64,000 nucleotides of DNA from Verrucomicrobiia bacterium. Its GTDB lineage: Bacteria > Verrucomicrobiota > Verrucomicrobiia > Verrucomicrobiales > Akkermansiaceae. The notes beneath the pieces were generated by a model that saw nothing but the letters and a program-made list of their open reading frames with translations, was not told the DNA's origin and did not search any database. Shown piece by piece: positions 1,356 to 42,508 of this stretch (position 1 is its first letter; every line of letters starts with the position of its first letter). Position numbers and translations under genes: made by a program. The stretch spans positions 1 through 64,000 of the forward strand of contig JAUIJD010000002.1 in assembly GCA_030431475.1 (NCBI GenBank), written 5' to 3'.

Positions 1356-4300
1356 TCACAGGCCATCGATGCGAAGGCGGATGAAGTACCTCGGGTGGTT
1401 GTCGGTCTCGATCGTGGCACGCAGGTGATCGGTCCCATCAATGGTTTCCGGAATTGCCGGGAGCAGGTCCCAATCGCCTAGATCGAGCGTCAGGTCCTCG
1501 GTGCCGATGATGCTGTAGCCGAGTTCGGCGCGTGGGGTGGGGTAGGCGATCGAGACCGCGCCGCCACTGGCTTCAAGCTGCGGGCGCGAAGCGCTGGAGT
1601 CGGCCCGCGGATCGAAGCCCAGCGCGTACTCGACGGCGTTGGCCAGACCGTCGAAGTCCGGGTCCGCCGTATCGGCTGCGTCGGGATCGGACGCCCAATC
1701 AAGACCGAAATGGTGCACCTTCCAGGCGTCGATGGGTGAGTCGGAGCCATCGACGCGGACGATGGTGTGGGTGCCCGATCCGGTCCAGGGAACCCGGACG
1801 TGTTCACCTTCAACGGTGCCGGTCACCTCGATCCCGTCGATGAAGACGATGGGGTTTGCGGTCGCGCCCTTGGGGACCGCGATCGTGGCGAGGACATTCG
1901 CCGGAAGACTGAGGTCCATCCTGTATCCCGCAGATCCGTTCTCCCACTTGACGAAGACCTCTCCCCGATCGGTGGGGAAGCGGCCTTCGGCACGGTCGAG
2001 CGAGGCGCCGAAGTCGAGCGGCTTGATCTCGATGTCACCGTACTGGGAGGAAAGCGGTTTCACCCCGAGAATGTAGCGAAGATAGCCCTCGAGGCCGGCG
2101 GCGCCCCAGGCGTGCGAGAGACTCTGCCCCGTGGTGTCGGCGTCCCAGGACTCCCAGGTGGCGGTGGCCCCGAGGCTGAGACAGCGCGCCCAGCCGTTCC
2201 AGGTGTCGTTGGTGAAAAGCTCGACGAGATGCTCTCCTTCTCCCGCCTCGCCGACGGCCCGGACGAGCCACGGCAGGGTCACCATTCCCACGCTCATCTC
2301 CAGCTCCTTGACCTTCGAGACCACGCTTGCCTGTTGGGCGGCGGGCACGGTGCCCAGCGCCAGCGGGAACATGTTGGCGTGCTGCGAAACGTGGGAGCTT
2401 GGCGATCCGCCGGAGTCGAGACCATCGACATAGACGCCGCTGCCGTTGATCAGTTGGGTGTTCATCGCCGTCTCCAACGCGTCGGCGCGCGTCCAGAACA
2501 GGTTGCGGTCGGAGGTGTTGCCGAGTTCCCCGGCGATCTTCGCCATCACCTCGTAGCCGGCGTAGGCCCAGCCGTTGATCACGGTGCGGGCCGCGGTCAT
2601 GTCGTAGCCGAAGCGCATGGTCGCCGGCCAATCGACGATGCCGTAGAGATACGGGCCGCTGCCTCCGCTGAGGTTCGTGATCAAGCCGGTGCCGGAATCG
2701 CGGTGGGCGTGCATGTAGTCGGCGATGGACTTGAGCTTCGCGTAGTTGTCCGAGAGGAAGTCCAGGTCGCCGGTTTCGAGGTAGTAGTTCCAGACCCACG
2801 GCAGATAGGCCTGCGTGAAATCCGGGATGTCGCGGGCGCCGTCTCCATTCGGATAGACCGCATTCATGCGGCCGCTGTCTCCGGGCCCGGACCAGTGCTG
2901 GTCCATCGACTGGAGGAACTCATGGAGCGAGCGCCGCGTCAGACGGCGCTCGTTCATCACCGGCATGGCCACCGTGCTCTGGATCGCGGCGTCACCGAGG
3001 AAACCGCCCTTCTCGCGCGTCGGGGTGTCGACGAAGGCCTCCTGGGCGCAGGTGAAGAGCGAGTGCTTCATCAGGTCCCACACGGCGTCCAGGGTCGGGT
3101 CCGTGGATTCGAAGGACGACAGGGAGTCATCCATCTCGCTGTGGCGGTGGATGAAGGTGAAGTTGGCCGTCGTCACCGGCATCGGCGAGTTGTCGATCTG
3201 GAAGTAGCGCATGCCGAGGTACTCGGCCGGCTCGTAGAGGAAGGTTCCGCCGTTGAGGATGGCCCGGAAGGTCATGTCGGTGTTCTGACTCTTCGAGGTG
3301 TCGATCTCTCCCGAGCCGTCGATCTCGTAGCCGCCCCGCATGTGGATCGTCGTTCCGGAAACTCCGCCGGAGAACTCGATGCGGGGGACGCCGGCATACA
3401 CCTTGCCGAGATCGACGACGTATTTTCCGCCCCCGAGGTGGGTGATCGAGTCCGGGATCAGTTCGCTCTCGGCGATGCGGGTGAGGTCGGGGGCGAGCGT
3501 GCCGGTCCAGGGAGATACCGGGTGGGAACCGATGGCCGTGGCCGTGCTCCACGAGGTGTCGTTGAAGGCGGTCTCGTACCAGTCGGGGACGAGTTCCCGC
3601 GCGTCGATCTCCTCGATGTAGCCGACACCTTCACCGTTGCGCTGGGACTGGCCGGTGACCCATGCGGTGGCGCGGCTCTGCCGCCAGGTGGCGTCGGTGC
3701 CGATTTCCGACTTGCTTCCGTCGGTATAGCGCACGATCGCCTTCATGATCACGCCGCGGGCGTTGGTGGGGCGACCCTGGCCGCCGCCGAACCAGTGGTT
3801 GAAGATGGCGAACTGGTTGATCGCGTCGGCCTGGACGTGGGCGGTCACGTCATGGCCATGGTAGTATTGGTATTGCGGGTGGTGGTAGGCGGGGCCCTTG
3901 CCGATCAGAGTTCCGTTGAAATAGAGCGCGTACTTGTGGGCGCTGGAGATGTAGATCGTCGCCCGCTCGACGATCTTGTCCGGAGCCACCCACTGTTTGC
4001 GGAAGTAGGTGTAGTCGTCGTCGTCGGAGGTGGTTCGGCGGATCCACTGGGCGCCCGCCCAATTGGCATCGGTGCCGAGGCCCACCACGAACGACGCGGG
4101 AGCCGAGTAGGGGCCGACGTTTCCGTCGCGGTCCCAGGTGCGGACCTTCCAGTGCATGCGGCGGTCGCCGGCGAGCGGGCTGCCCGCGTAGGGGACATGG
4201 TTCTGGGATCGGCTTCCGACTTGTCCGCTGTCCCACAAGTCTCCGTTGTTGGCAGCAAGATTGGCCGCCGACGAGGCGACGAGGATCTGGTAGGCGGTCT

Positions 4301-6191
4301 GGATCTCATGCGGATCGGGGTCGTTCACGTGCCAGCCGAAGTAGGGTGCGGCGCCGGTGCCGACAGGCTCGACCGCATCATCGACGCGCAGCTGGCTCGG
4401 GGCCTGCGGGGCGGAGGCCCCGGGTGCGAAGGCGGGAGGACTTCCGGGATCATCGCTCTTGTGGAGGATCAGGACGAAGGTCTGCACATCCGTCCCTCCG
4501 CCACCGGATTCGGTTCCCTCGACGCGGATCGAGAAACTCTGGCCATCGGAATAGGCCGGGCCGGAGAAGTCGGTTCCGACCTCGAGATGGTCGCCGTCGA
4601 TCTGGAACAAACCGTTGTCATCGCCGCCCGGTCCGGCGACCAGGGCGAAGTTCGACGTGACGGGGATCCCTCCGATTCCGGCCGAGAGGGTGCCGATGGG
4701 GGCCGCGATCGGATCCGTGGCTTCGAAGGCGGCGTTGTCGAGATCGATCGCGTAGCTGCCGGCGGGGGAGAAGGTCGAGATCTCCAGGTTGTCGATCCGG
4801 TGGCCGTCCTCGTTGCAGCCGATCTCGAAACGGAGGGCGCCGGCGTTGCCATCCCATTGGAAGGTGTCGCTGGCGATCTCGGTGCCCCCGATCGTGGTGA
4901 CCGCCGTGACATTGCTTCCGTCGGCGAAGGAGTCGAAGCTCAGGCTGAGGGCGACGGCGAGCGGGGTGTTGTCGGTGGTCGGGATGCTGTTTCCCGTGCC
5001 CAGGCTCGACCCGTTGTCGAAGCGCTGGGTGCCGCCGTTCTGGCGAATGAGGATTCCGTAGTCGGTGTCGCTGTTGTTGACGCGGCTGGTGTCGGTGGAG
5101 TCGCCGTTCCCGGTGCCGAGGCTCCAGGCGTGCCACTCCGAACTGCCGACATCGGTCGGAGTCCAGTCGTAGGTGATGGTGATGCCCCCGGAGGCGAGGA
5201 TGTCGGCACCCGCTGACCCGCCGGCCCAGTCGTAGCGGTCTGTGGCTCCCGAGGTCGGGTCGTTGGTGGCGAGTTCGAAGCGCACGCCACCTCCCGAGCC
5301 GGAGCCCGAGTAGGCGAGCGCAAGCCGGTTGCTGTCGATCCCCTGGTCGGTGCCGAAGGATCGCAGGTAGGTCTCGCCTGCGAGGGTGCCGGACAGGCGT
5401 CCCGAGAGCGACGCGTTGTTGAACGAGCCGTCGGGCGCATCGAAGTTGTCGGCGAAGAAGGTGATGTCGCTCGAGGGGGAGAGGATCCGGAGGTCGTCGA
5501 GCGAGGCGGTGAAGTTGCCGGAGCGGACGTCCGACCAGACGCCGATGAAGGCACCTGCCGTGGTGAAGGCGGGATTGGTGTAGCTGCTGACCGCGTTGAG
5601 GCCGTCGTCGAGTCCGACCCAGCCGCCGGTGAAGTCGTCCTCCGAGGTGCGGGTGATGTAGAATCCCTTGACGTTGGAAAGATTGACGGAGGCGTCGTCC
5701 TGCTGGCCGACATCGGCCGTTCCGACAAAGCGCTCGGAGAGGAAGTCGTCCGACCCGGGTCGGAAGGTCGCGGTGAAGAGGTCCTGCCGGGTGTCGGAGG
5801 TGGAGGGGGGATTCGAGGTGGCTGTTGCGGGGGTTCCGCTCAGGGACACGGCGAGTCCGATGTTCTCGTTCCCGTTGAGTCCGGAAACCGACGTGAGATC
5901 GATGAGGGCGGTCTCGCCGATGTCGAGCGATGCCGTCTGGTGGAGGTAGAGGGATTGAATGGCACCGCCGCCGAAGAAGCCGGCGCCGGAGACTTCGAGT
6001 TCGTTGCTGTTTCCCCCATCGATGACATGGCTTGGCGCGCCACCGGTGGAAGCGCTGAAAAGAACGGGGGCGAAGGTGTAGTCGGAGGAGGAATCGCTCT
6101 CGAAATCATCTGCAAACGGCGCCGCCGTGGCCATGGAGACCATGAGGGGAATCAGGGAGATCGTGGACCGGGCGGAAGGGAGAGCTGGCAT
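1356..6191 (-). CDS. Giant secreted alpha-L-rhamnosidase, GH78
   Basis: A 1611-aa protein. I chose ATG 6191 over an in-frame ATG at 6254 because it places a signal peptide (MPALPSARSTISLIPLMVSM...) at the terminus. Order: a concanavalin-like module (about 25-235), a second one with an RYDW motif (about 244-474), a cadherin-like repeat (about 477-580), an N-terminal Fn3-like GH78 domain (PYFGWHVNDPD), the rhamnosidase lectin-like domain and the (alpha/alpha)6 barrel to about 1483, then a calcium-type motif (DPDFDGLANAVEYALGFDP) and a C-terminal beta domain ending YFIRLRIDGL. The GH78 acid motif DTPTRE..G..GDA sits at residues 1055-1067, with E1060 in the general-acid region. It should release terminal alpha-L-rhamnose from rhamnogalacturonan fragments outside the inner membrane. 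The non-catalytic modules also occur in the next protein upstream. It is much longer than the usual 900-1100 aa. Confidence 0.93.
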   Translation of the reverse strand: MPALPSARSTISLIPLMVSMATAAPFADDFESDSSSDYTFAPVLFSASTGGAPSHVIDGGNSNELEVSGAGFFGGGAIQSLYLHQTASLDIGETALIDLTSVSGLNGNENIGLAVSLSGTPATATSNPPSTSDTRQDLFTATFRPGSDDFLSERFVGTADVGQQDDASVNLSNVKGFYITRTSEDDFTGGWVGLDDGLNAVSSYTNPAFTTAGAFIGVWSDVRSGNFTASLDDLRILSPSSDITFFADNFDAPDGSFNNASLSGRLSGTLAGETYLRSFGTDQGIDSNRLALAYSGSGSGGGVRFELATNDPTSGATDRYDWAGGSAGADILASGGITITYDWTPTDVGSSEWHAWSLGTGNGDSTDTSRVNNSDTDYGILIRQNGGTQRFDNGSSLGTGNSIPTTDNTPLAVALSLSFDSFADGSNVTAVTTIGGTEIASDTFQWDGNAGALRFEIGCNEDGHRIDNLEISTFSPAGSYAIDLDNAAFEATDPIAAPIGTLSAGIGGIPVTSNFALVAGPGGDDNGLFQIDGDHLEVGTDFSGPAYSDGQSFSIRVEGTESGGGGTDVQTFVLILHKSDDPGSPPAFAPGASAPQAPSQLRVDDAVEPVGTGAAPYFGWHVNDPDPHEIQTAYQILVASSAANLAANNGDLWDSGQVGSRSQNHVPYAGSPLAGDRRMHWKVRTWDRDGNVGPYSAPASFVVGLGTDANWAGAQWIRRTTSDDDDYTYFRKQWVAPDKIVERATIYISSAHKYALYFNGTLIGKGPAYHHPQYQYYHGHDVTAHVQADAINQFAIFNHWFGGGQGRPTNARGVIMKAIVRYTDGSKSEIGTDATWRQSRATAWVTGQSQRNGEGVGYIEEIDARELVPDWYETAFNDTSWSTATAIGSHPVSPWTGTLAPDLTRIAESELIPDSITHLGGGKYVVDLGKVYAGVPRIEFSGGVSGTTIHMRGGYEIDGSGEIDTSKSQNTDMTFRAILNGGTFLYEPAEYLGMRYFQIDNSPMPVTTANFTFIHRHSEMDDSLSSFESTDPTLDAVWDLMKHSLFTCAQEAFVDTPTREKGGFLGDAAIQSTVAMPVMNERRLTRRSLHEFLQSMDQHWSGPGDSGRMNAVYPNGDGARDIPDFTQAYLPWVWNYYLETGDLDFLSDNYAKLKSIADYMHAHRDSGTGLITNLSGGSGPYLYGIVDWPATMRFGYDMTAARTVINGWAYAGYEVMAKIAGELGNTSDRNLFWTRADALETAMNTQLINGSGVYVDGLDSGGSPSSHVSQHANMFPLALGTVPAAQQASVVSKVKELEMSVGMVTLPWLVRAVGEAGEGEHLVELFTNDTWNGWARCLSLGATATWESWDADTTGQSLSHAWGAAGLEGYLRYILGVKPLSSQYGDIEIKPLDFGASLDRAEGRFPTDRGEVFVKWENGSAGYRMDLSLPANVLATIAVPKGATANPIVFIDGIEVTGTVEGEHVRVPWTGSGTHTIVRVDGSDSPIDAWKVHHFGLDWASDPDAADTADPDFDGLANAVEYALGFDPRADSSASRPQLEASGGAVSIAYPTPRAELGYSIIGTEDLTLDLGDWDLLPAIPETIDGTDHLRATIETDNHPRYFIRLRIDGL

Positions 6192-6289
6192 GATGCGGCC
6201 GGGGACGGGTTTTAGGCCCCAAGTAGCATAAGGGCGGATCGGGCGGGAGTCCATGGGATGAGTTCTGGAGGGAGGAATCGGTCGGGAAG

Positions 6290-6344
6290 GATAAAAGAAC
6301 CGCCCGCCGTCCGCGAGCCGGTGCGGCTCGCGTGCGGCGGGCGG
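6290..6344 (-). terminator. Strong rho-independent terminator
   Basis: Two nested perfect stems: an outer 10-bp arm pair at 6300-6309 / 6335-6344, a 2-nt internal mismatch, then a 9-bp stem at 6312-6320 / 6324-6332 with a GTG loop. On the minus strand the hairpin is followed by TTCTTTTAT (6290-6298). It ends transcription of the gene whose stop is at 6369, separating it from the GH78 gene. Confidence 0.88.
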
Positions 6345-6368
6345 GGAAGAGGGCCGCGGCGCGGGCCG

Positions 6369-9300
6369 CTAGTCCTCGATGCGGACGAAGTATTTCGACG
6401 CGCCGGCGAACTCGGAGGCGGGCACGGTGACCTGCCCGATGCCGCTGCCGTCGGTGGTCGGACTCAGCGGTGCGGCGAGCGCCCCGAAGCCCGACGAGAG
6501 GTCTGCGGACTTGGTCACTGTGTAGGTGGTGTTGGCCGATCCCTCGAAGTCGATGATCAGGTCGCCCGAACCGTTCCGCGTCACCCCAGTCACCACCGGG
6601 CCGAGCGGGCTGGCGTCGATGATGCGGAAGTTGTCGACCTCGGCGGTGTAGCTCGAACTCCGGATGTCGGTGTAGATGCCGACGTAGGCGGGTTGTCCGG
6701 CGAAGTTCGGGTTGGTGTAGGTGACGAGCTGGATGAGCTCGAGGTTGGTGTTGTCGTAGTAGCCGCCGACGAACTCGGTGTCCGAGATGCGGGTGATGTA
6801 GACCCCCTTCATGTCGCTCGGGGCGCCGCTGCCCTGGCCGAGGTCGGTGGTCCCCTCGAAGCGTTCCGAGCGGAAGTCTCCGCCGCGGCGGATGCCGGCG
6901 GTGAAGATGTCGGCCCGGGCGCTGCCGCCACCCGCGGCCACGCCAGCCGGGGGATTGGCGAGGGAGACGAGGACGCCGATGGTTTCATTCTGCAGCGGGA
7001 AGCTGAAGTTGACGATGTCGAGCATTACCGTTTCACCCACGCCGATCGACTCGTTGTTGTGGGCGTAGGCCGACTGCAGCGCGCCCGCGGTGTAGGTCGG
7101 ATTGCTGATCTGCAGCGTGTTGCTGTCGCCGGCGTCGATCTCGTAGACGACCGCGCCGGTGCCAACGTCGTTCGACAGCATGTCGCTGCCGGTCCAGTCG
7201 GCGGAGGAATCGGAATCGAAGGCATCCTCCCAGAGAAGCACGTAGGCGTCGTTGAGGCCGTTGAGGTCGTCGTCCTTGAAGACGGTGAGTTCAAACACGT
7301 CCTCGGAGATCTCACCGCCGCCGTCGCCCTGGATGCGGACGGAGAAGACCTGACCGTTCACCGAGTTCGCTCCGGTGAAGTCGCTTCCGACCTGCAGTTG
7401 GTCACCCACGATCTGGAACAGGCCGTTGTCGGTGTCGCCGGTGCCGGAGACGAAGCTGTAGGTGGCGGCTTGCGGAAGGCCCGAGATGGTCGACGACAGC
7501 GTGCCGATCAGGCTTCCGATCGGGTCGCCGGAGATGAAGCCGGTGTTGTCGATCACGGTGACCAGCGGCGGGGTGGTGACGGCGCCATCCACCTCGTTGG
7601 TCATGCCATACATGTGGAAGCTCTTGCCGCTGACGCCCGCGCTCGGGTGGGTGGCGGCGTCGATCACGAGGTCGGTGCCCTGGGCGGTGTAGCTCCAGCT
7701 CACGTAGCAGGCGTCATCATCGTTGAAGGTGCCGGTTGCATATCCGGGAGAGTCCTCGGGGAAGGCTCCGAAGGCCTGGATGACTTCGGCCCCGTTGGTG
7801 AAGGTGATGTCCAGCGGACGATTGCTCCCCGGCGTCCAGGAACGGATGTAGAGGCGGATGATGTAGTCTTCGCCCGGAGTCAGGCCCGAGAGGGTGTAGG
7901 TCTGGGATTCGCCCGGTTCGCCGCCATCGGTCGAGTAGGACATCGTGCTGAGCAGGTCGATGATGCCGGTGCCGGTGACCCCTCCGTCGGCCGGAGTCCA
8001 GCCGCTGAGATTGGGCGAAGTGACGGCCGAACGGGTGTTGCCGTCGCTCGGGGTCCAGTCGAAGTCGCTCAGGCTGTTCGAGGTGTCGAGCACATCGAAC
8101 ACCACGCCGTTGACCGTCGCGCCGCCGCCACCGCTGATCTTGTGGGTGTAGACCTTGCTGGCGAGGATGTCGCTGCTGGCATCGTCGGTGATCGAGACGA
8201 CCGAGACGCCTGCCGCGATGGGGAAGTCGGTGTCATCTTCCGGGTCGGTGCCCTGCGCGACTTCGAAGCCGTCGCGGCCACCGTCGTCGTCCATGTCCGG
8301 GTCGAAGGGATCGAGGAACAGGCTGTCCTCCTCCGCGTCGTCCAACTCGTCGCCGTCGGTGTCGGCAAGGGTGGGATCACCGAGGAATCCGTCGATTTCA
8401 TCGAAATCGCTGAGGGTGTCGCCGTCGGTGTCGGCCTCGGTCGGATCGATGTCGGGGTAGGAGCCGGGGTCGAGCCCGGAGAGGCCGACGCTGAGCTCGT
8501 ATTCGTCGATGTCGTAGAGCCCGTCGCCGTCGAAGTCGCCGGTGCCGGCGCCGGGGCCCGAACCAAAGAGCGTGCCGTCGAGGTCGGTCAGGTTGGGCGG
8601 ATCCGTCCACTGGAGTTCCCAAGCGTCGGGGAGGTCATCATTGTCGGAGTCGCCGGCTACAAGGGTGGTGACCTCGAGATTGTCGACGAAAAGGGTGCCG
8701 GAGCTGTAGCGATAGGCACCGAACTCCCAGCGGAAGTCCTCGGTGGCGTCGAGGGTGAAGGATTCGTTGAGGAACTCGATGCCCTCGACCGAAACGGAGA
8801 CGTTGACCGTCTCACCGGTGTTGAAGGAGGCGAACTCGAGCTTGATGTCGATCTGGGCGAAAGCGCCGGGGGTGAGGGTCAGGGCCGGTGCGTAGTCCAC
8901 GGGGCCCGACAGGTCGGCCCCGTCCACGAAGCTCAGGACGCGGTCGCCCTCGAAACGGAGTCCGTAACGGCCGTCGTCGTAGAGCTTCTCGGTGGTCGGG
9001 TCGTCATTCGCGGTGCCGAAGGAGAAAGACAGGTAGTCGTTGTTGTTGGTGAGATTCGACAGCGCGTAGTCCAGCTTGATGCGCAAGCCGTCGTCGGCGA
9101 GGATCAGCGGACTGGTTGCGCCGGACGGGTCGCCCCAGTTGTAGCGGTCGGTCTGGGGACCGAAACGCACGCCGGAGGATGCGCCGCCGGACTTGATGAG
9201 CTTCAGGGTGTCGTTCGAGAGAAGCTGCTGGGCCGCGAACGACTCGAGGTCATGCGTCGATGGCACGACCCCGGCGATGCCCGAGAAATCGGTCCGAGAG

Positions 9301-9425
9301 TTGAGCTGGAAGTCGCCGCCGTCGTCGTCGGTATTGTCGAAGTTGTCGGAGAACAAGAGGGTCTGCGACAGCACGGGTCCGGTGAGGGCGCCCGCGAGTA
9401 GGAGGGCTCGGAATGTGGGTTTCAC
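6369..9425 (-). CDS. Large modular secreted protein with concanavalin-like, TSP3 and cadherin-like domains
   Basis: A 1018-aa protein if it starts at GTG 9425, which gives a clean signal peptide (VKPTFRALLLAGALTGPVLS-Q); an upstream ATG at 9563 would add 46 residues with no secretion signal. Order: concanavalin-like module with RYNWGDPSG (about 22-250), four thrombospondin-3-like calcium motifs (DSDNDDLPDAWE, DFDGDGLYDIDEYE, DTDGDTLSDFDE, DTDGDELDDAEED; about 258-398), an uncharacterised beta domain (about 403-608), a cadherin-like repeat (about 621-718, NGLFQIVGDQLQVGSDF), a second concanavalin-like module (about 728-941, YITRISDTEFVGG) and a C-terminal domain ending KYFVRIED. I see no catalytic domain. 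Its modules are homologous to those of the GH78 enzyme but in a different order. Glycan binding or matrix attachment is a guess. The start lacks a Shine-Dalgarno; the leader is CACAAAACACCACC. Confidence 0.8.
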   Translation of the reverse strand: MKPTFRALLLAGALTGPVLSQTLLFSDNFDNTDDDGGDFQLNSRTDFSGIAGVVPSTHDLESFAAQQLLSNDTLKLIKSGGASSGVRFGPQTDRYNWGDPSGATSPLILADDGLRIKLDYALSNLTNNNDYLSFSFGTANDDPTTEKLYDDGRYGLRFEGDRVLSFVDGADLSGPVDYAPALTLTPGAFAQIDIKLEFASFNTGETVNVSVSVEGIEFLNESFTLDATEDFRWEFGAYRYSSGTLFVDNLEVTTLVAGDSDNDDLPDAWELQWTDPPNLTDLDGTLFGSGPGAGTGDFDGDGLYDIDEYELSVGLSGLDPGSYPDIDPTEADTDGDTLSDFDEIDGFLGDPTLADTDGDELDDAEEDSLFLDPFDPDMDDDGGRDGFEVAQGTDPEDDTDFPIAAGVSVVSITDDASSDILASKVYTHKISGGGGATVNGVVFDVLDTSNSLSDFDWTPSDGNTRSAVTSPNLSGWTPADGGVTGTGIIDLLSTMSYSTDGGEPGESQTYTLSGLTPGEDYIIRLYIRSWTPGSNRPLDITFTNGAEVIQAFGAFPEDSPGYATGTFNDDDACYVSWSYTAQGTDLVIDAATHPSAGVSGKSFHMYGMTNEVDGAVTTPPLVTVIDNTGFISGDPIGSLIGTLSSTISGLPQAATYSFVSGTGDTDNGLFQIVGDQLQVGSDFTGANSVNGQVFSVRIQGDGGGEISEDVFELTVFKDDDLNGLNDAYVLLWEDAFDSDSSADWTGSDMLSNDVGTGAVVYEIDAGDSNTLQISNPTYTAGALQSAYAHNNESIGVGETVMLDIVNFSFPLQNETIGVLVSLANPPAGVAAGGGSARADIFTAGIRRGGDFRSERFEGTTDLGQGSGAPSDMKGVYITRISDTEFVGGYYDNTNLELIQLVTYTNPNFAGQPAYVGIYTDIRSSSYTAEVDNFRIIDASPLGPVVTGVTRNGSGDLIIDFEGSANTTYTVTKSADLSSGFGALAAPLSPTTDGSGIGQVTVPASEFAGASKYFVRIED

Positions 9426-9502
9426 GGTGGTGTTTTGTGGGTTTGTGCCCGGGAGGCGGTTGGTCTGAGGTTCATCGGCACGATCGTCCCGCACGGCGCC
9501 AT

Positions 9503-19282: not shown

Positions 19283-20131
19283 ATGACAAAACCCCTCGCC
19301 CTCTTCGTGGCTTCAACCTTTGTGGCCGGCTCTGCCAGCGCCGTGGTTCTCTACAGCGATACCTTCGACAACGGCAGCACTCCCACACAGGCCTTCGACG
19401 GATCCTCGACGCCCGAGGTGAACCTGTTGGGTGCAAGCAACGTTCTCGAGCAGTACGGGAGCGGATCCCAGGAGAACCACGTGGATCGCTGGAGGGCCGA
19501 CTCGGTCAGCGACATCAGTGGTCTCAGCTGGGATGCCAATGGCACCCGCTACAACTGGGCGACCGGTGCCCATGCCAGCACGATCGCCCTCAACGGCTTG
19601 AGGATCTCCGGTCTGATGCGCACCGGCAACGGTGGTGACTTCCTCGCCTTCGGCTTCGGCATGGACGGCACCGATCCGGTCGGATCGGGCTTCGGGACGG
19701 TGTATTCCGACCCGAGCGCCGACTGGGGCATCCGCTTCGAAAACGACCGCATGATCTCTTTCGACGGCGGCACGACCACCCCTCGCTACCGCACGGATGT
19801 CGATCCGGGTGCCTACAACTTCGGCAACTACAACCCCTTCACCTTCCAACTCGATCTGGTCTTCGACGATGGAAACTTCGACGCGGGATCCACGGTGACG
19901 GCGAGCCTGATCCTGAGTGACGGCACCACCACCCAGACCTACACTGACTTCGACACCTGGACGCTGGCAGGAACCGACGAGTTCATCATCGACATGGCGT
20001 ATCACGTCACCGGAAGCGGTGAAGGCCTGCTCTATGACATTGAGGTGGCCTCGGTTCCCGAGCCGGGTGTCGCGCTGCTCGGAGGACTGGGAGTTCTCGG
20101 TCTTCTCCGCCGCCGTCGTTCGCGTTCTTGA
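19283..20131 (+). CDS. PEP-CTERM-sorted secreted protein
   Basis: A 282-aa protein with an N-terminal signal (MTKPLALFVASTFVAGSASA), a concanavalin-like module (TRYNWATGAHAS; WGIRFENDRMISFDGG) and a C-terminal PEP-CTERM tripartite tail: VPEPG, a hydrophobic stretch (VALLGGLGVLGLL) and RRRRSRS. PEP-CTERM proteins are cleaved by exosortase and usually displayed on or released from the cell surface in matrix-forming bacteria; no exosortase gene is in this window. The body is homologous to the RYDW/RYNW modules of the GH78 enzyme and of the 1018-aa protein, so it may be a minimal version of that module. The start is preceded by CCAACCAACCAACAGACCA, with no Shine-Dalgarno. Confidence 0.9.
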   Translation: MTKPLALFVASTFVAGSASAVVLYSDTFDNGSTPTQAFDGSSTPEVNLLGASNVLEQYGSGSQENHVDRWRADSVSDISGLSWDANGTRYNWATGAHASTIALNGLRISGLMRTGNGGDFLAFGFGMDGTDPVGSGFGTVYSDPSADWGIRFENDRMISFDGGTTTPRYRTDVDPGAYNFGNYNPFTFQLDLVFDDGNFDAGSTVTASLILSDGTTTQTYTDFDTWTLAGTDEFIIDMAYHVTGSGEGLLYDIEVASVPEPGVALLGGLGVLGLLRRRRSRS

Positions 20132-32343: not shown

Positions 32344-32351
32344 TGGCTGGA

Positions 32352-34868: not shown

Positions 34869-34885
34869 GATGTTCTCAGGTGGGA

Positions 34886-34930: not shown

Positions 34931-34934
34931 CACC

Positions 34935-37715
34935 TTACGGTGCGGTCTCGACGCGGTAGAAGGCGCGAGAAGCGGTGGCGGCGGGGTCGATGAAGGTCTC
35001 GGTGGCGTTGGTGCCGGGTTTGGTCTGGCCCGGAACATCGCTCCACCCGGAGAGGGTTCCGGATTTCCGCAGCGTGAAGTCCCGCCCGGCGGGGAGGAAC
35101 ATGTCGAGTTCGACGGTGGCGCCGGCGCGGCGAATGTCCTTGATGCGCAGGGCGAGGTGCGGATGGCCGGAGACGGCGACGCCGATGGTGCGGGTCATGG
35201 TCACGCTGTTGCCCGTGACGGTCACCTCGATCTCGGCAAGCCCGGTGTAGCCCGCAGTCGGGGTGAACTCGGCGATGTCACGGTCGGTGGTGGTGGTGCC
35301 GTGGGTGGTCGAGACGACGGCGAAGGAGGGATTGGTGAAGCCCCGGCCGAGCGACGAGAGGTCGAAGCGCAGTGGGGTGTCGGGCGCCGTGTGGTGGTGG
35401 GTTTGCGCCATCCAGTTCAGGTAGTCCTCGAGGCGGGTGAAGCCGTCCTGGTCGGGATCGGCGTGGGCTTCCGAGAAGTCGGGCGACTGGAGATCGGAGC
35501 CGTGAAGTTGCTCCCACCAGTTCGGCATGCCGTCGCCGTCGCCGTCCCAGTCGGCGGGGCGGGATTCGCCCGGGTAGTTCTCCCAGCCGCCGACGTCGGC
35601 CTGCGAGTTCGGCAGCCCGGGCGACCCGCCGTAGGGACCCTGGCCGGTGTAGGTGAAGGTGCCGGTGCGGGTTTCCTCGATCACGCGGGCGTCGTGTTCG
35701 TCGAGCATCGGCCGGGTGCAGCCGACGTCCGAGAGGACGCGGCGGTAGGCCTCCGCGGCGGTGTGGGTGGTGACGTGGGAGTCGAAGAAGGGCGCGGTGA
35801 CCCACACCGGATACTCCGTCGGGACCGAGCCTCCGTTGCTGCCGGCGACCGTGCGTCCCGCGGCCTGGTCGGCTTCGGTGAAGTAGCCGGGCATGACGTT
35901 GCCGCTCATGTAGTACTGCTGGGTGCCGGGGAAGTTGTCGTAGGTCGGGTTGAGCGCGGTGAAGATCGTGCTGGCGGCTCCAGGCTTGTAGTAGTTGTTG
36001 ACGAAGTTGACCTCGTGGGCGCCGCCGTCGGTGGTGCGGTTGCCCCAGTTGTAGACGACGTTGTTGCGGATATCGAGCCGGCCGGCGAACTCGCCGTCGG
36101 CGTCGAGCCCGCCGCCGAGCGACCAGTTGCGGCCTTCGTTGTGGGCGAGAAGATTGTGGTGGTAGCTGCCGATGTCGCCGCTGATGGTGGCGGCGTAGCC
36201 GTGTTCGGTGCCGGGCGGGTAGTTCTGGTGGCCGGCGATGTTGAGGCATTCGGAGATCAGGGTGTTCTGGAGGGTGATGTTGCCGGCGCCGCGGCCGCTG
36301 AAGGCCTCGTCGATGGACCAGCTGATCGAGCAGTGGTCCATGATGGAGTGGTCGCATCCGGCGAGGCCGCCGCCATCGATGGTGGCGCCGCTGATGTCGC
36401 CGGGGCGGTTGCGGATGAAGCGGACGATGGTGTCGTCGGACCCGCTCAGGCCGAGGGCGTAGCCGCGGATGGAGATGCCCTTGCCTGGCGCGGTCTGGCC
36501 GGCGATGGTGACGTGGTCGTCGCTGAGCGTGAGTTTCCGCACGAGCGTGATGAGCCCGGGAATGTCGAAAACGATCGTGCGCGGGCCGTCGACCTCCTCG
36601 ATGGCGTGGCGCAGGGTGCCGGGAACCGGGGTGGCTCCCTCGGCGTAGTCTTCGAGCGAGGTGATGTGAACGATATCGCCGCCTCGACCGCCGCGGGCGA
36701 AGCGCCCGTAGCCCTCGGCTCCGGGGAAGGCGAGCGTGCGGGGGCGGAAGGACCAGACGGTGCCGCGGGTCGTTTCCGAAGCCGTGTTGATCTGATCCAC
36801 GCGCCAGTAGTAGGTGGCGTGCGGATCGGCGACGGCGACCGTGTGGGCGGTGGAGGTCGGTTCGCCGAGGGTGATCAGGGGGGTGGTGGCGTTGGCCACG
36901 GTGTCGCGGTCGGTGCCGAAGTAGAGGGCGTGGGTGGCGGTGTCGCCGGCGAGCGCGGCGTCCCAGGAGAGGGTGACCGTGCCGTCGTCGGCGTCGAGGT
37001 GACCGTCGCGGTCGGCCGGCGAGGGGTTGCCGGCGGCCTGATACAGGTTGGGCGTATCGACCTCGAAGCCGTTGATCATCGGGTTGCCGATCGTGAAGGC
37101 GCCGGATGCCGGCTCGGCGTCGAAGAGAAAGGTGGTCGTGTCGGCGGGTCCGGTGACGTTGAAGGTGAGGTAGGAGATGGCGGCGGAGACCTTGTCGGCG
37201 GCGTTGACCGTCTGAGGGAGGTCGTCGTGGGCGAGCGTGCCGTTGACGTGGACATCCAGCGGGGCGACGGAGCCTGGAGACCACCCGCCGTCGGCGCCGT
37301 TGTGGTAGGTCAGCAGCGTGTGTTCGCCGGCTTCGAGGCCGGTGATCGTCATCTCCAGCTGCCCGCCACCGGCGAAGGTGCGGGGATCGACGGTGAGGCC
37401 GTCGCCGATGAGCTTGGCGTTGCCGCTGGCGGCGGCGTTGTCGTAGAGGAAGGTGATGCCGGTGCCTCCCGCCGATTGAGAGGTGGCGGTCTGGGCGAAG
37501 GTGACCGTGACGCTCTCGCCGGTGGTCGTGGTGAACGTGCGGGCGATGGGTGCGGTGCCGCTGGCCGAGGTGGCGCCGTCGTAGGAGCCCTGGCTCCACT
37601 TGGTGAAGCCCGGTTCGGTGTAGTTGTCGCCGTTCTTCGTGTCGCGGTTGATGTCGACCCTCAGCTCGCCGGCGGTGAGGGCGAGGGGAAGCAGCAGTGG
37701 AAGGAGGCGGTGCAT
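34935..37715 (-). CDS. Secreted pectate lyase-type enzyme (PL1-like) with N-terminal binding and Fn3-like domains
   Basis: A 926-aa protein with signal peptide MHRLLPLLLPLALTAG. Order: a beta-sandwich domain (about 17-225), an Fn3-like domain (about 240-325, ending YYWRVDQINTASETTRGTVW), then the parallel beta-helix lyase beginning LAFPGAEGYGRFARGGRGGD (about 328) with the conserved LRHAIEEVDGPRTIVFDIPG and VTIAGQTAPGKGISIRGYAL, then calcium-type repeats (DWDGDGDGMPNWWE; DPDQDGFTRLEDYL) and a C-terminal domain ending RAFYRVETAP. PL1-type lyases cleave polygalacturonate by beta-elimination with calcium. It is more divergent from the other two PL1 proteins here than they are from each other. 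Confidence 0.87.
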   Translation of the reverse strand: MHRLLPLLLPLALTAGELRVDINRDTKNGDNYTEPGFTKWSQGSYDGATSASGTAPIARTFTTTTGESVTVTFAQTATSQSAGGTGITFLYDNAAASGNAKLIGDGLTVDPRTFAGGGQLEMTITGLEAGEHTLLTYHNGADGGWSPGSVAPLDVHVNGTLAHDDLPQTVNAADKVSAAISYLTFNVTGPADTTTFLFDAEPASGAFTIGNPMINGFEVDTPNLYQAAGNPSPADRDGHLDADDGTVTLSWDAALAGDTATHALYFGTDRDTVANATTPLITLGEPTSTAHTVAVADPHATYYWRVDQINTASETTRGTVWSFRPRTLAFPGAEGYGRFARGGRGGDIVHITSLEDYAEGATPVPGTLRHAIEEVDGPRTIVFDIPGLITLVRKLTLSDDHVTIAGQTAPGKGISIRGYALGLSGSDDTIVRFIRNRPGDISGATIDGGGLAGCDHSIMDHCSISWSIDEAFSGRGAGNITLQNTLISECLNIAGHQNYPPGTEHGYAATISGDIGSYHHNLLAHNEGRNWSLGGGLDADGEFAGRLDIRNNVVYNWGNRTTDGGAHEVNFVNNYYKPGAASTIFTALNPTYDNFPGTQQYYMSGNVMPGYFTEADQAAGRTVAGSNGGSVPTEYPVWVTAPFFDSHVTTHTAAEAYRRVLSDVGCTRPMLDEHDARVIEETRTGTFTYTGQGPYGGSPGLPNSQADVGGWENYPGESRPADWDGDGDGMPNWWEQLHGSDLQSPDFSEAHADPDQDGFTRLEDYLNWMAQTHHHTAPDTPLRFDLSSLGRGFTNPSFAVVSTTHGTTTTDRDIAEFTPTAGYTGLAEIEVTVTGNSVTMTRTIGVAVSGHPHLALRIKDIRRAGATVELDMFLPAGRDFTLRKSGTLSGWSDVPGQTKPGTNATETFIDPAATASRAFYRVETAP

Positions 37716-37725
37716 GAGAGGATCA

Positions 37726-37769
37726 GGCGGCAGGATGCCGCCGTGACGGCCTGCGGCTGGAAGCCGCAG
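37726..37769. repeat. REP-like paired-hairpin element, copy 3 (gap between the two PL1 genes)
   Basis: Hairpin 1 GGCGGCA-GGA-TGCCGCC (37726-37742), an 8-nt spacer, hairpin 2 CTGCGGCT-GGA-AGCCGCAG (37751-37769). Both stems are perfect. It fills most of the 62-bp gap and ends 8 nt from the stop codon (37778-37780) of the upstream gene. Confidence 0.85.
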
Positions 37770-37777
37770 CGACCACG

Positions 37778-40700
37778 CTACGGGGTCACGAGGACACGGT
37801 AGAAGCGGGTGCCGTGGGTGGCGCCGCCGGGGTCGGTGAAGGGCTGGACGGTGCCGTTGCCGGTCTTGGCGGCCCCGACGTCATGCCAGGAGTCCGACTC
37901 GAGGCTGTCGGACCACTGAAGCTGATAGGTGTGGCCCTCGAAGGTCGGGAGCGAGAGGGTGAAGTCGTTGCCGCTGATACCGAAGGTTTCGAGATCGAGT
38001 CCGGAAGAGTCGATGATGATCCCGTTGTTGATCAGGTTGGCCGGGACCTCGCCGTCGGCCGTCAGGAGGTCGAGCACGCCGTTGTTGTAGAAGGTGTCGG
38101 TGGTGGAGAGCACGGAGCCGGACGTGAGGCGGGCGGTGCCGTTGTTCACCACGACGCCGTCGAGCAGCAGGGTTCCCGAGCTGCAGAGCAGGGTTCCGTC
38201 GTTGGTGAGTTCCCCCCGGATCGTTCCGGGGCCGAGCAGGGTGGCGCCGGGGGCGATCTGGACGCTTTCGGTTTCGAGTGTGCCGCCGTCGAGTTCGAGC
38301 ACGGCTCCGTCCTCGACCTCGGTGCCGCCGGTGATCGTGAGCGACCCGGGTAGCGCGAGGGTGCCGGACTCGACGAGGATGGAGCCGGGGTAGTCGGAGG
38401 TCCCGCCGAGGCAGAGGCGTCCGCTGCCGACCTTCTCGATCCGAAGTCCGGAGAGGTCGCCGCCGTTGGAGATGGTGCCGTCGAAGCAGGTGTCGAGGCC
38501 GAGGGCGCCGATGCGGTAGGTGGTGGAGGTGGTGCCGGAGCCGGACTGGCGGCCGTTGAGGTGGGTGCCGGAGCCGCCGGAGAGGGCCCCGAGCTCGATG
38601 AGCTTGTCGCCGTTGCGGTTGGTCAGGGTGGCGCCGGCGCTGCCGAGGTCGAAGTGGGCGGCGGGGCTGCCGAAGTTGACGTCCTGGGCGGCGACCGTGC
38701 CCGAGTTGAGCCTCAGCATTCCCGAGCCGGTGCCGAAGTCGAGGGTGCCCGAAAAGCCGGACATCGGGCCCTTGAGGCTGAGGATGCCGGCCACCCCGGA
38801 GAAGTCGACGGTCGGGAAACCCGTGCTCGCGAAGGTGGCTCCGTAGTCGTCGACGATCGTACTATTGCCGCCGTAGGAGGAGGCGACGGCGCAGTCTCCG
38901 GTGATGAGGAAGGAGTTGTCGAGGAAGGTCGCGGAGCCCGGGAGCTGGAGTTGGCCGCCGGACATCTCCACCAGTCCGGTGCCGAGGCCGACGACGGAGT
39001 TCGTGAGAATGAGGTTGCCGCCGGAGATCCGGGTGCCGCCGGAGTAGGTGTGGGTCGAGGTGCCCGACAGGGTCAGGGTGCCGGGACCCGACTTCTCGAG
39101 GGACATCGGGCCGGCGAGATGGCCCGAGCCGGTGAAGTTGTAGCTGCGGGTGGCGTTGTCGACGATGACATCGCGGGGTTGCAGCTCGCCGATCAGGTTG
39201 ACGGTGCCGTTGGAGGCGGCATCGGTGAAGCGGGCGAGGTCCAGGTTGTAGAAGGTGCTGCCGCTGAAATTGGCGGTGCTGTTGAGGTCCCAGTCCCAGC
39301 CGGAGTTGCCTTGCCAGGTGAGGTCCGCCGCGTTGCCGGTGACCTCGAGCCAGACGTAGCCGCCGGCGGTGCCGCTGGCGGTGCGGTTGACCGAGAACGA
39401 CTGCCGGATGGTCGGCGGGGCCTCGGTCTCGACAAACATGCTCATCGCGCCGACGCGGTAGAGCGGCACGCCGGGAGCGCAGTCGATCAGCTTGTAGATT
39501 CCGGCTCCGAGCACGCCGTCGGCGAAGCGGATGTGGAAGGTGTTGTCGCCGCTCATGTCGGCGTAGCCGCCGGTGATGTGGAGCCGGTCGTTGTCGCCGG
39601 CGGGTGAGTCGGAGAGGTCGAAGTAGAGCTCGTTGTTGTCGATGTCGATCCCGCCGCCGATCGTGAGATCGTCCGGGTCGGGGGACACCATGGCGCCGGG
39701 ATCGAGCGTGGCGAAGCCGCCGATGTCGAGGCTGCCGGCGACCAGGGCGCCGTCGCGGACCACGAGGTCGTTTCCGATCGAACCGTCGCCGTCGAGCGTC
39801 GTGCCGGTGCCGACGTACACGGTCGAGCTGTTGGCGAGGGAGCCGGGAAGGTGGATGGAGCCGCCGTAGATGGCGGTGACGCCGCTGTAGGTGTTGTCGC
39901 CCGACAGCGTCAGGGTGCCGTTGCCGTACTTGTCGACACCCGTGGTTCCCGTGAGGCCGTCCATGATGACGCCGGCGAACTCGGTGTCATCGTTGAGCGC
40001 GCCGATTTGCCAGGTGGTGGTGCCGCCGAGGTAGGCGCCGCGAAGGCGCGAGTTGGCGTCGCCGCTGAGGGCCCCGATGCCGTACGGATTGCCGCCGGAA
40101 TTGTTGCCGTTGAACAGGTCGATGCCCGAGAGGTGGACACGGGCGTTTGGGAAGCCGTTGAAGTCGCCGGGGTTGTCGCTGAAGACGATGCGTCCGCCGT
40201 TTCCGGGGGCGGTGGCCCCACCGGAGATGTTGACGTTCCCGGTGCATCCGGCGGACGAGCCCCGGAGGTAAGCCCGGCCCTCGGTGCCGAGGGTGGAGGG
40301 CGAGAAGATGTTGAAGGTGCCGCCGCCGGAGAAGGATCCGTTGATATTGATGCGGGAGGAAAGGTTCAGGTTTCCGACCGCACCCGCCTCGACGACGATG
40401 TCGGGTTCGAGGGTGAGATAGTTGCTGCCGGTGTTGTCGTTGAGCGTGCTGCCGCCGGTGAAGCGGATGGGGCCGCCCCCGAGATTGCCGCCGTTGTTGA
40501 GCACCGTCTCGCCACCGTTGAGGTAGGTGCCGGTGGCCGAGCTGACGAAGGTGTCGAGCGTGAGGGAGGTGTCGGAGGCCTTGGTGAGACTGGTCGCGAC
40601 GGAAAGGGTGCCGGGTCCGGTGAAGTGGTAGTCCTGCGAGCCGGTGACGGTGACCGAGTTCGGCGAACGGGTGCCGCTGATGGCGACGGGCGAGGCATCG

Positions 40701-42508
40701 CCCCGGTCGTCGAAGAGGGCATTGTCGCCGTCGTTGAAGGAGGTCGGCGAATCCGTGGCCCAGTTGAACGTGGCGGTGTCCCAGGTGTTGCCGGCGAGGC
40801 CTCCCTCCCAGTGGATGTCGCGGGGCAGGGCGCTGACCGTGACCAGCAGGGCGAAGGGTTGGGTCCACGAAGAGCCGTCGTTGACGGTGAAGTCGAAACC
40901 GGCGCGCCCGTCGAAGTTCAGGGTCGGCGTGAACGTCACGATCGGGCCGGTGGCCGACGGAGTGGTCCCGTTGGCGGCGAACTGCTGGATGCTGCCGTTC
41001 GACACCGAACTAATGCTGAACGCGGCGTTGGACGCGAAGCCGTAGGTGTAGCGCCGGAGATCGACGGTGATCGAGGAGGTGACTGCCGTGGTGTTCTTGG
41101 CGACGACTCCGTGGGGGATGGATTTGAAGTGAAGATACTCCTCGAGATAGGTGTAGCCGGTCGGCGTGCCGGGCGGGAAGAAGGTGCCGGCGGTGCTGGC
41201 GAAGGCCGTGTTGTGGTCCTGGACGACGGGGTTCGAGCCGAGCGCGGACTCCCAGATGTCGGGCATGCCGTCGAGGTCGGTGTCGAGCGGCGGGGCGGTC
41301 GATTCGAGCGTGCCGAAGCCGCTGTTGGACACGGGCAGGTCGGACTCGCGGGAGATGCGCGAATGAATCTGGTTGGCGACGTTTCCGAAAAGGAGCGTAT
41401 CGACCTCGTCGCGCAGGGTGCCGGCGTGGTTGGCGCTCATGCGCACGGCGCCGGCCTGGGAAAGCACCTTCTTGTAGGCGGTGAGCGGGTCGTCGATGGT
41501 CGCGGCGATGTTTCCCGAGGCACCGGCGAAGGGGGTGGTCGCCTTCACGTAGCGGTTGGCTCCGGACGGGTCGCCCGGCTGGAACTCCGAGCCGCGGACG
41601 ATGGCGTAGCCCTTGTCGGTGCCGTTCAGCAGCCCGTCGCCGTCGGCGTCGTGCAGGCAGTCATCGAGATAGAGCGAGAAATTCGGGTTGCCGTTGCGGT
41701 CGACGGTCGCCTTTTCGAGAGCGTAGTTGTCGGTGTAGGTCGGCGGTGACAGGAAATAGGAGCCGATGACGTTCGCTTTCCACGGGGCCGGGGTCTGGGA
41801 GTCGCCCATGATGAAGCCGATGCCCCAGTCGAAGGTCACGTTGTTGATCCACTCGAGCAGTCCGTAGGGCCGGGCCTTCGGGTTGCGGGTGTGATGGTGG
41901 GCCCACAGCGAGTCGATGCAGGACCCGCGGTCGAGATCCCACAGCCCGCCGGCGTTGTGGCTTTCCAGTCCCCAGGCGCTGAGCGAGCGCTGCATGGTGA
42001 ACTTGTCGAGCGTGCTGTTGAAGAAGGAGATGTTCTCGTCGGTGCTGAACTGCATCGAGACGTGGTCGACGATGGAGTCGTGGGCCGAGGAATCGACGTT
42101 AAGGCAGTCGCCGCCGCCGCCGTACTTGCCGTGGCGGATGCGGAGGTTGCGGATCACGCAGTTGTCGCCGGTGATGCGCACCGTGCCGTCGCGCAGGCCG
42201 ATGCCGTCGCCGGGAGCCGTCTGGCCGGCGATGGTGACGTTGTCCTGGACGATGCGGAGGTTCGAGCCGGGAAGCGAGATGTAGCCGCTGACCGCGAAGA
42301 CGATGGTACGGCCGGCCGAGGGGGCGGTTTCCACGGCCTCGCGCAGTGAGCCGGCACCGTTGCTGTTGAGGTTGGTGACGACGTAAACGTCACCGCCGCG
42401 GCCGCCGTTGGCGTGTCCGCCGAAGCCCTCGGCGCCGGGGAAGGCCGGGATCTGGGCAAGGACGGGGAGGGCGAGGAGGGTCAGGAAGCTGGAGAGGATT
42501 CGGGTCAT
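37778..42508 (-). CDS. Pectate lyase (PL1) fused to autotransporter-associated beta-strand (PATR) repeats
   Basis: A 1576-aa protein from ATG 42508 (signal MTRILSSFLTLLALPVLA); an ATG at 42568 would read through the REP-like repeat. Residues about 20-560 are a PL1 lyase nearly co-linear with the protein at 55823-57490 (AFPGAEGFGG, GGRGGDVYVVTNLNS, VTIAGQTAPGDGIGLRDGT, HHHTRNPKARPYGLLEWINN, DTDLDGMPDIWESALGSNP). Residues about 590-1500 are repetitive beta structure with PATR-type units (GNGTLTLSGDNTYSGVTAIY, GPGTLTLSGTSTHTYSGGTR). It ends in a C-terminal domain (YQLQWSDSLESDSWHDVG ... RFYRVLVTP) shared with neighbours. No autotransporter beta-barrel is present. A surface-attached pectate lyase is the likely role. 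Confidence 0.9.
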   Translation of the reverse strand: MTRILSSFLTLLALPVLAQIPAFPGAEGFGGHANGGRGGDVYVVTNLNSNGAGSLREAVETAPSAGRTIVFAVSGYISLPGSNLRIVQDNVTIAGQTAPGDGIGLRDGTVRITGDNCVIRNLRIRHGKYGGGGDCLNVDSSAHDSIVDHVSMQFSTDENISFFNSTLDKFTMQRSLSAWGLESHNAGGLWDLDRGSCIDSLWAHHHTRNPKARPYGLLEWINNVTFDWGIGFIMGDSQTPAPWKANVIGSYFLSPPTYTDNYALEKATVDRNGNPNFSLYLDDCLHDADGDGLLNGTDKGYAIVRGSEFQPGDPSGANRYVKATTPFAGASGNIAATIDDPLTAYKKVLSQAGAVRMSANHAGTLRDEVDTLLFGNVANQIHSRISRESDLPVSNSGFGTLESTAPPLDTDLDGMPDIWESALGSNPVVQDHNTAFASTAGTFFPPGTPTGYTYLEEYLHFKSIPHGVVAKNTTAVTSSITVDLRRYTYGFASNAAFSISSVSNGSIQQFAANGTTPSATGPIVTFTPTLNFDGRAGFDFTVNDGSSWTQPFALLVTVSALPRDIHWEGGLAGNTWDTATFNWATDSPTSFNDGDNALFDDRGDASPVAISGTRSPNSVTVTGSQDYHFTGPGTLSVATSLTKASDTSLTLDTFVSSATGTYLNGGETVLNNGGNLGGGPIRFTGGSTLNDNTGSNYLTLEPDIVVEAGAVGNLNLSSRININGSFSGGGTFNIFSPSTLGTEGRAYLRGSSAGCTGNVNISGGATAPGNGGRIVFSDNPGDFNGFPNARVHLSGIDLFNGNNSGGNPYGIGALSGDANSRLRGAYLGGTTTWQIGALNDDTEFAGVIMDGLTGTTGVDKYGNGTLTLSGDNTYSGVTAIYGGSIHLPGSLANSSTVYVGTGTTLDGDGSIGNDLVVRDGALVAGSLDIGGFATLDPGAMVSPDPDDLTIGGGIDIDNNELYFDLSDSPAGDNDRLHITGGYADMSGDNTFHIRFADGVLGAGIYKLIDCAPGVPLYRVGAMSMFVETEAPPTIRQSFSVNRTASGTAGGYVWLEVTGNAADLTWQGNSGWDWDLNSTANFSGSTFYNLDLARFTDAASNGTVNLIGELQPRDVIVDNATRSYNFTGSGHLAGPMSLEKSGPGTLTLSGTSTHTYSGGTRISGGNLILTNSVVGLGTGLVEMSGGQLQLPGSATFLDNSFLITGDCAVASSYGGNSTIVDDYGATFASTGFPTVDFSGVAGILSLKGPMSGFSGTLDFGTGSGMLRLNSGTVAAQDVNFGSPAAHFDLGSAGATLTNRNGDKLIELGALSGGSGTHLNGRQSGSGTTSTTYRIGALGLDTCFDGTISNGGDLSGLRIEKVGSGRLCLGGTSDYPGSILVESGTLALPGSLTITGGTEVEDGAVLELDGGTLETESVQIAPGATLLGPGTIRGELTNDGTLLCSSGTLLLDGVVVNNGTARLTSGSVLSTTDTFYNNGVLDLLTADGEVPANLINNGIIIDSSGLDLETFGISGNDFTLSLPTFEGHTYQLQWSDSLESDSWHDVGAAKTGNGTVQPFTDPGGATHGTRFYRVLVTP

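Follow-up and report, generated by a model that had tools for sequence, protein, structure and literature searches.

We begin by considering the C-terminal tags that have already been described for secreted proteins. The type IX C-terminal domain (type A; PF18962 / TIGR04183) is a seven-strand Ig-like beta sandwich. The PEP-CTERM tag (PF07589) is a 24-residue motif with a membrane helix and a basic end, and according to the figures drawn from PMC1569441 fewer than ten residues follow the motif in 87% of cases. Four large proteins in the DNA studied here were originally predicted to share a C-terminal domain that resembles one or the other of these tags. The resemblance extends to the mostly terminal position, to the diversity of the hosts, most of them predicted to be secreted, and to the slot occupied in some PL1 lyases, where some Bacteroidota copies have the type IX domain; the new domain, called the tail in what follows, nevertheless belongs to neither family. 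It is a real and numerous domain family, near-confined to one phylum in the genomes sampled.

The window, that is, the whole stretch of 64,000 nucleotides under analysis, is the first 64 kb of contig C81 in a genome of 4.73 Mb and 109 contigs. The translations confirm that the four proteins lie where they had been placed and end in the strands that had been read for them (Table 1). Their main domains include a GH78 rhamnosidase and two PL1 lyases, assigned by NCBIfam PelZ, one of them with PATR repeats (Pfam, NCBIfam).

Table 1. Proteins of the window that carry the tail, and the features at their C-termini
Feature	Position	Strand	Basis
Secreted GH78 alpha-L-rhamnosidase, host gene	1356..6191	-	Pfam PF17389, PF25788, PF08531, PF05592, PF17390
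GH78 C-terminal tail domain, ends ...RYFIRLRIDGL	1359..1592	-	profile match 1365-1586, E 4.5e-9
D-x-D-x-D-G (TSP3-like) linker immediately upstream of GH78 tail	1578..1700	-	translation; genome-wide pattern
1018-aa secreted modular protein, host gene, GTG start	6369..9425	-	translation, Pfam scan
Tail domain of 1018-aa modular protein, ends ...KYFVRIED	6372..6605	-	profile match 6363-6590, E 1.4e-14
Secreted PelZ-like PL1 lyase with TSP3-like part, Big_9-like part and tail, host gene	34935..37715	-	Pfam/NCBIfam; Big_9 E 0.026, below cut-off
PL1 lyase tail domain, ends ...AFYRVETAP	34938..35165	-	profile match 34938-35138, E 2.8e-17; modelled as separate six-strand domain after low-confidence linker
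Secreted PL1 lyase with PATR beta-strand repeats, host gene	37778..42508	-	Pfam, NCBIfam, translation
PL1-PATR tail domain, ends ...RFYRVLVTP	37781..38008	-	profile match 37784-37990, E 1.4e-21; model pLDDT 91.5

Pairwise, the four tails are only weakly alike: BLASTP gives E 6e-6 between the two PL1 tails and E 0.016 between those of the GH78 enzyme and the 1018-aa protein, and lists no match for the remaining pairs. A profile built from 30 tails of the same genome, with these four left out, recovers all four (E 9e-19, 1e-14, 2e-10 and 9e-4; the GH78 tail is the most divergent) above every one of 2000 shuffled sequences, the best of which scores E 0.28. The common domain is confirmed by this leave-out profile, a partly circular test in that the 30 tails were found with the four-tail profile and aligned together with the four. 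Scanning the window in all six frames, with a minimum open frame of 50 residues, gives these four tails only, in agreement with the claim that its other secreted enzymes lack the domain. The D-x-D-x-D-G motif had been placed upstream of the tail in three of the proteins. It does adjoin the tail of the GH78 enzyme, but in both PL1 lyases it follows the catalytic domain and other domains intervene; the motif is also present in PL1 relatives without a tail (L153, L154).

How numerous is the domain in the whole genome? At E<=10 the four-tail profile finds 38 matches; 30 of these loci were fetched, and in 29 the match closes the frame. A profile of 34 aligned tails gives 94 matches at E<=0.01. Re-scored in the fetched DNA, these yield 88 distinct domains in 87 ORFs (90 rows before duplicates in C36 and C98 are removed). 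Terminal copies number 73, among them one incomplete match with 34 residues between its end and the stop (C23:61195), and 72 of them end within ten residues of the stop codon. The other 15 of the 88 are internal; this class takes in those 11 of the 90 rows whose ORFs run off the fetched DNA, each with more than 50 residues beyond the domain. The expectation that the domain always stands at the extreme C-terminus therefore fails, and the fold does not need a free end, since 15 of 88 copies are internal. Two clear tails (C28:74606 and C81:181100, both ending in proline) were lost on re-scoring and fell among the 171 background ORFs used below.

Some arrangements deserve mention in their own right. 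Four internal copies (C36:43999, C106:15987, C53:15600, C18:51636) have TSP3-like D-x-D-x-D-G stretches within about 20 residues downstream. In C70:21578-27397 (L048) two copies lie near the end of one protein, in the order domain, TSP3-like stretch, domain, stop. In C6:175-1476 some fifty further residues, several of them Cys and His, follow the tail, which may reflect a frameshift or a lengthened tail.

The 34 aligned tails are 64-81 residues long and follow one pattern, with a Y-x-L-x-x-S-x-D-L-x-x-W strand, a variable middle and R-F-Y-R-V near the stop, often with a final proline. The F-x-R motif is near-invariant in this alignment. It was found in 69 of the 73 terminal tails, and there its conserved F stands at a distance of 6-14 residues from the end. 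The last residue is proline in 44 of the 73, and positions -2 and -3 hold proline in 3 and 8. C-terminal proline is reported to be enriched in some phyla and depleted in others (PMC7246954); because the bias differs between phyla for unrelated reasons, ORFs of the same stretches are the proper comparison, and there a final proline occurs in 23 of 171 (p 7e-13 against the tails), or 21 of 169 when the two missed tails are taken out. A D-x-D-x-D-G motif lies within 70 residues upstream of 44 of the 73 terminal tails, as against 72 of 780 random windows taken from the tail-bearing proteins themselves.

We turn our attention to the proteins that carry the domain. A crude signal-peptide heuristic is satisfied by 56 of 66 full-length tail ORFs. 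Among interior windows it is satisfied by 9 of 290, and among other ORFs by 22 of 107, a figure that includes the two missed tails. The tail had been expected only on proteins with signal peptides, which is mostly the case by this heuristic, but 10 of the 66 miss the rule; about five of the ten, including the 1018-aa protein, look by eye as if they bear a signal peptide from another start codon. The union of unrelated main domains with a common tail is borne out genome-wide by 62 Pfam families in 54 scanned proteins (54 of the 73 terminal ORFs, the shorter ones). Among the 25 of 62 families listed, most are extracellular enzymes or binding modules and 13 occur in a single protein each; they include LamG, sulfatase, GDSL lipase, subtilase, BNR, GH9, GH30, GH43, PL8, PL14, NAGLU and CBM6, with di-haem peroxidase and endonuclease/phosphatase among further hosts. 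The hosts are often long, the tail-bearing stop-to-stop frames spanning 247-3159 residues.

Across the phylum, the tail is matched at E<=0.001 in 178 of 387 Verrucomicrobiota genomes, and in 157 of the 311 of good quality. This search scored at most 15 candidates per genome, so that the counts for single genomes are floors; five tail-rich genomes counted in full hold 45 to about 100 candidate copies each, and in four complete genomes other than the window's the number of matches at E<=0.01 ranges from 45 to 101. Outside the phylum, 11 genomes were reached through loci named Bacteroidota, Planctomycetota, Ignavibacteria, Hydrogenedentota and Bacillota: eight have no match, two have one each and one has two, the best at 4.8e-4. 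Thirty loci with the best match of a genome were fetched, of which 29 matched and one (L122) is the window's own. From the other genomes of the phylum 28 of 29 best matches were recovered, and 16 of the 28 end in P and the rest in E, D or R; all 28 are terminal, a figure biased because it takes the best match per genome with a profile built almost wholly from terminal tails. Within the window's family, 12 small-genome members of genus g2 have no tail match at E<=0.001. Small genomes of this family (2.2-3.5 Mb) have 0 to 7 matches, and the window's genus has at least 15 candidates in 7 of 7 genomes. The number of tails seems to shrink with the secretome.

The next question is "does the tail belong to a family that is already known?" When the four whole proteins are scanned, the tails stay free of any Pfam or NCBIfam match, even with the threshold relaxed to E<=1. 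The 34 tails alone give sporadic matches only (best E 0.0046), with no model covering the tail. PF18962 and TIGR04183 have no match at E<=1 on the four proteins or on the 34 tails, and PF07589 has none at E<=1 on the 34; the PEP motif, the membrane helix and the basic cluster are absent from the 34 aligned tails. PF00041 (Fn3) matches none of the 34 in the Pfam scan, and a weak fn3 match in P0002 lies at residues 448-529, outside the tail. PF00754 matches two of the 34 (best E 0.0089). In a comparison with PDB sequences, a glucanase/chitosanase binding module of 137 residues aligns co-linearly, through its residues 61-118, with profile positions 12-69 (E 0.024). Viral contigs hold no relative of the PL1-PATR protein. 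Identity with a known generic Fn3 or carbohydrate-binding domain was the outcome named as fatal to the prediction of a sorting signal. By sequence there is no such match. The modelled fold, however, resembles Fn3, and the tail shows some weak similarity to one half of an F5/8 type C domain. We find no account, in the open-licence full-text literature searched, of a tag that moves or holds very large verrucomicrobial hydrolases. The tail domain is so far unnamed, with no Pfam-A or NCBIfam model and no description in that literature.

For the predicted fold we use two AlphaFold2 models, built from 8 and 9 sequences, one of the PL1-PATR tail (pLDDT 91.5) and one of the Big_9 and tail pair of the PL1 lyase (pLDDT 90.5, with a low-confidence linker). 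In both, the tail is predicted as a compact domain with 5 and 6 main strands, ending in R-F-Y-R-V. The 50 structural matches listed for the tail model are mostly Fn3-type chains at Z 5.7-6.6, values that may mean only a common strand arrangement; fold searches of the PDB and of viral models give nothing at E<=0.001, and for the two-domain model most of the best-scoring matches fall on the Big_9 part. The Fn3 chains matched by the tail include monobody or tencon types of 86-96 residues, which align only as far as residues 74-78, a point that we take to lie before the last Fn3 strand. As this last strand is missing in the models, the R-F-Y-R-V strand appears as an open edge, and the tail seems to be an Fn3-like sandwich lacking its final strand.

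The PL1 lyases allow the tail to be compared with the type IX domain on related proteins. Relatives of the catalytic domain from named genomes were examined at 41 of 79 loci, and ends that were not scanned with Pfam were judged by eye. In the genome collection the closest named relatives of the window's PL1 lyase are those of an Akkermansia MAG (79% identity) and of Haloferula sp. BvORR071 (71%), and on these grounds the window's genome is regarded as verrucomicrobial. In an alignment of 12 relatives, identity to the window lyase downstream of the catalytic domain is 30-54% in row-by-row comparison. PF18962 matches each of six copies from Bacteroidota or Ignavibacteria that were selected by appearance, and in five the score exceeds the cut-off. 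This domain follows Big_9 directly in four of the six; CBM6 lies between in L157, and L222 has no Big_9 match. The verrucomicrobial tail likewise follows Big_9 directly in the window lyase and in the Akkermansia MAG (L152), and after a linker of about 45 residues in Haloferula (L211). In a Verrucomicrobiales MAG (L197) and a subdivision 3 MAG (L208, whose tail is a weak match at E 0.024), some 150 residues separate the Big_9-like part from the tail. Some related PL1 lyases thus carry one kind of tail at the position that the other kind holds in others; this does not prove that the two share a function. Four verrucomicrobial copies (L153, L154, L213, L214) have no tail, and ten Flavobacterium copies and that of Fodinibius stop after Big_9 without a type IX tail (by eye). 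Since tail-less copies exist in both phyla, both kinds of tail are dispensable for a PL1 lyase. The window also contains a frame (55670-57487, +) that ends in a Big_9-like strand (FTFTVRDADGDAWTRPFAICVIEPG) and has no tail, like the tail-less Flavobacterium copies.

We then ask whether the tail keeps company with one set of export genes, as had been proposed. No such set was found: exosortase is also present in tail-negative genomes, and SprA (PF14349) is absent from 20 tail-rich genomes, the window's (G000) among them. Both controls, a Flavobacterium and a Bacteroides genome (those of L155 and L169), do contain SprA. PorV (PF19572) is found in none of the 387 genomes, a result that carries no weight because no control genome matched either. 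We reject membership in the type IX system, given the lack of any PF18962 or TIGR04183 match and the absence of SprA from the 20 tail-rich genomes. Exosortase is encoded twice in the window's genome; among the genomes of the phylum it occurs in 168 of the 178 with a tail and in 124 of the 209 without one, uncorrected for phylogeny or genome size; ten tail-positive genomes have no detected exosortase. It is associated with the tail, but its presence in 124 of 209 tail-negative genomes and the lack of a membrane helix in the tail lead us to reject it as the partner.

PEP-CTERM and exosortase coexist with the tail in this genome, and the window itself has a PEP-CTERM protein (19283-20131, +; frame end VPEPGVALLGGLGVLGLLRRRRSRS). 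Over the whole genome 38 PEP-CTERM ORFs score above the Pfam cut-off. For 12 of the 38 a domain ORF is no more than 400 bp away, where the null mean is 1.0; two of these 12 neighbours (C53, C35) carry an internal copy. At E<=0.15 the count is 14 of 43 (null mean 1.2). Weak PEP-CTERM matches also adjoin at C68:33572 and C20:12673, the latter at E 7.6 and outside the counts given here. Small PEP-CTERM genes often stand directly beside large domain genes, for example at C34:6987-8849, C53:1111-6000, C105:11747-15843 and C55:12681-14297; several such pairs have the PEP-CTERM gene upstream on the same strand. In four other complete genomes, 9 of 150 listed PEP-CTERM ORFs adjoin tail matches against about 1.8 expected, a count that covers 149 of 300 tail matches and 150 of 206 PEP-CTERM matches and leaves out G251:1649490 (in-frame stop); in G254 the count is 0 of 71 among the matches listed. 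Pairing with PEP-CTERM is therefore rejected as a general rule, being strong in the window's genome, weaker in the four others and absent in one of these four.

What could the tail do? We give about an even chance to its being a phylum-specific sorting or surface-retention domain, which we consider the likeliest reading. The large hosts, judged secreted by the signal-peptide heuristic, would cross the inner membrane by Sec, and a putative receptor in the periplasm or outer membrane would recognise the free end of the small Fn3-like domain and then send the protein across the outer membrane or hold it at the cell surface. The face recognised would probably be the last strand, R-F-Y-R-V, with the terminal residue, mostly proline, and a partner could add a strand to the apparent open edge where the last Fn3 strand seems to be missing. 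A fuller version of this proposal, which is tentative and on balance unlikely, is that Verrucomicrobiota would own an outer-membrane sorting route of their own, analogous to type IX and separately evolved, in which strand addition to the incomplete Fn3-like domain and a grip on the F-x-R-...-Pro end would export or display large hydrolases and adhesins, as many as about a hundred of them in a single genome.

Another reading, possible though somewhat doubtful in our view, is that the tail serves as a generic accessory domain: a small module, Fn3-like or half of a discoidin domain, with glycan, exopolysaccharide or the cell wall as its ligand, which happens to stand mostly at C-termini and has no dedicated sorting machinery. 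The 15 internal copies among 88, the Fn3-like predicted fold, the weak likeness to the glucanase/chitosanase module (E 0.024), the PF00754 matches on two of 34 tails (best E 0.0089) and the many polysaccharide-active hosts all agree with it. A binding module would not be expected, however, to end within ten residues of the stop in 72 of 88 copies or to have a conserved last residue (P in 44 of 73), and subtilases, di-haem peroxidase, endonuclease/phosphatase and GDSL lipases need not share one glycan. The fixed position and the conserved last residue make a recognised end likelier than a plain accessory module; the odds of a recognised end are kept about even because of the 15 internal copies and because no partner gene was found.

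The terminal proline, the length of many hosts (frames of 247-3159 residues) and the frequent calcium-type TSP3-like linker upstream would also suit a C-terminal folding or stability cap, in which a compact domain with a terminal proline would shield long multidomain proteins against tail-specific proteases and against carboxypeptidases acting in the periplasm or outside the cell. Such a cap has no obvious need of the near-invariant F-x-R motif, and other long secreted proteins of the window end without a tail, so we consider it quite improbable. Membership in the PEP-CTERM/exosortase pathway, with the tail proteins handled together with small PEP-CTERM partners, appears very improbable. The adjacency in the window's genome (12 of 38, null 1.0) and the excess of exosortase in tail-positive genomes (168 of 178, as against 124 of 209) speak for it; against it stand a tail with no PEP motif, membrane helix or basic cluster, the weaker adjacency elsewhere (9 of 150 listed, about 1.8 expected; 0 of 71 listed in G254) and the ten tail-positive genomes with no detected exosortase.

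Verrucomicrobiota are important degraders of polysaccharides in seas, soils and guts. The tail may be an address label for the export or surface attachment of their large secreted proteins. A single profile gives a common handle on the hosts, with which the question of export becomes testable, and annotators could recognise a domain that occurs in 178 of the 387 genomes of the phylum sampled and has no Pfam or NCBIfam model.

It remains to compare the tail with the known systems. With PEP-CTERM it has in common that it marks the C-termini of many secreted proteins of one genome that are unrelated in their other parts, and that it lies close to the stop (within ten residues in 72 of 88 domains, beside the 87% with fewer than ten given for PEP-CTERM in PMC1569441). 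It differs in being a folded beta domain with neither a membrane helix nor a basic end, and the PEP-CTERM frames of the window's genome are mostly 200-350 residues long, as against 247-3159 for those with the tail.

With the F5/8 type C module (discoidin / CBM32, PF00754) the tail shares a Y...S.D...W ... F-x-R-V pattern, and most of it is co-linear with the C-terminal half of the module. The match is not significant (E 0.024, 0.0089), the tail of 64-81 residues is about half of a full module of about 120-140, and the predicted fold is nearer to Fn3; descent from a halved discoidin domain is possible on this sequence likeness. The predicted fold of the tail resembles Fn3 (PF00041), at a Z level that may mean only a common arrangement, and its six strands can be read as A-B-C-C'-E-F, whereas no Pfam match is obtained on 34 tails and the tail is shorter, apparently lacks the last strand and is mostly terminal.

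The type IX domain differs from the tail in sequence, with no match between the two. It is a seven-strand sandwich, and the tail models have 5 and 6 main strands of Fn3/Ig-like arrangement (Z <=6.6). The tail also comes without SprA in the 20 tail-rich genomes, has another motif (Y-x-L-x-x-S-x-D-L-x-x-W ... R-F-Y-R-V, often with a final P) and is internal in some copies. Both measure about 70 residues and form a beta sandwich, a predicted one in the case of the tail, and both are found at the C-terminus, the tail in 73 of 88 copies. Each is carried by numerous unrelated hosts in one genome that begin with a Sec signal peptide (for the tail, in most cases and by the heuristic), and each has a corresponding place in related PL1 lyases. 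By this analogy, the tail would work like a type IX C-terminal domain in position and use while being a different domain.
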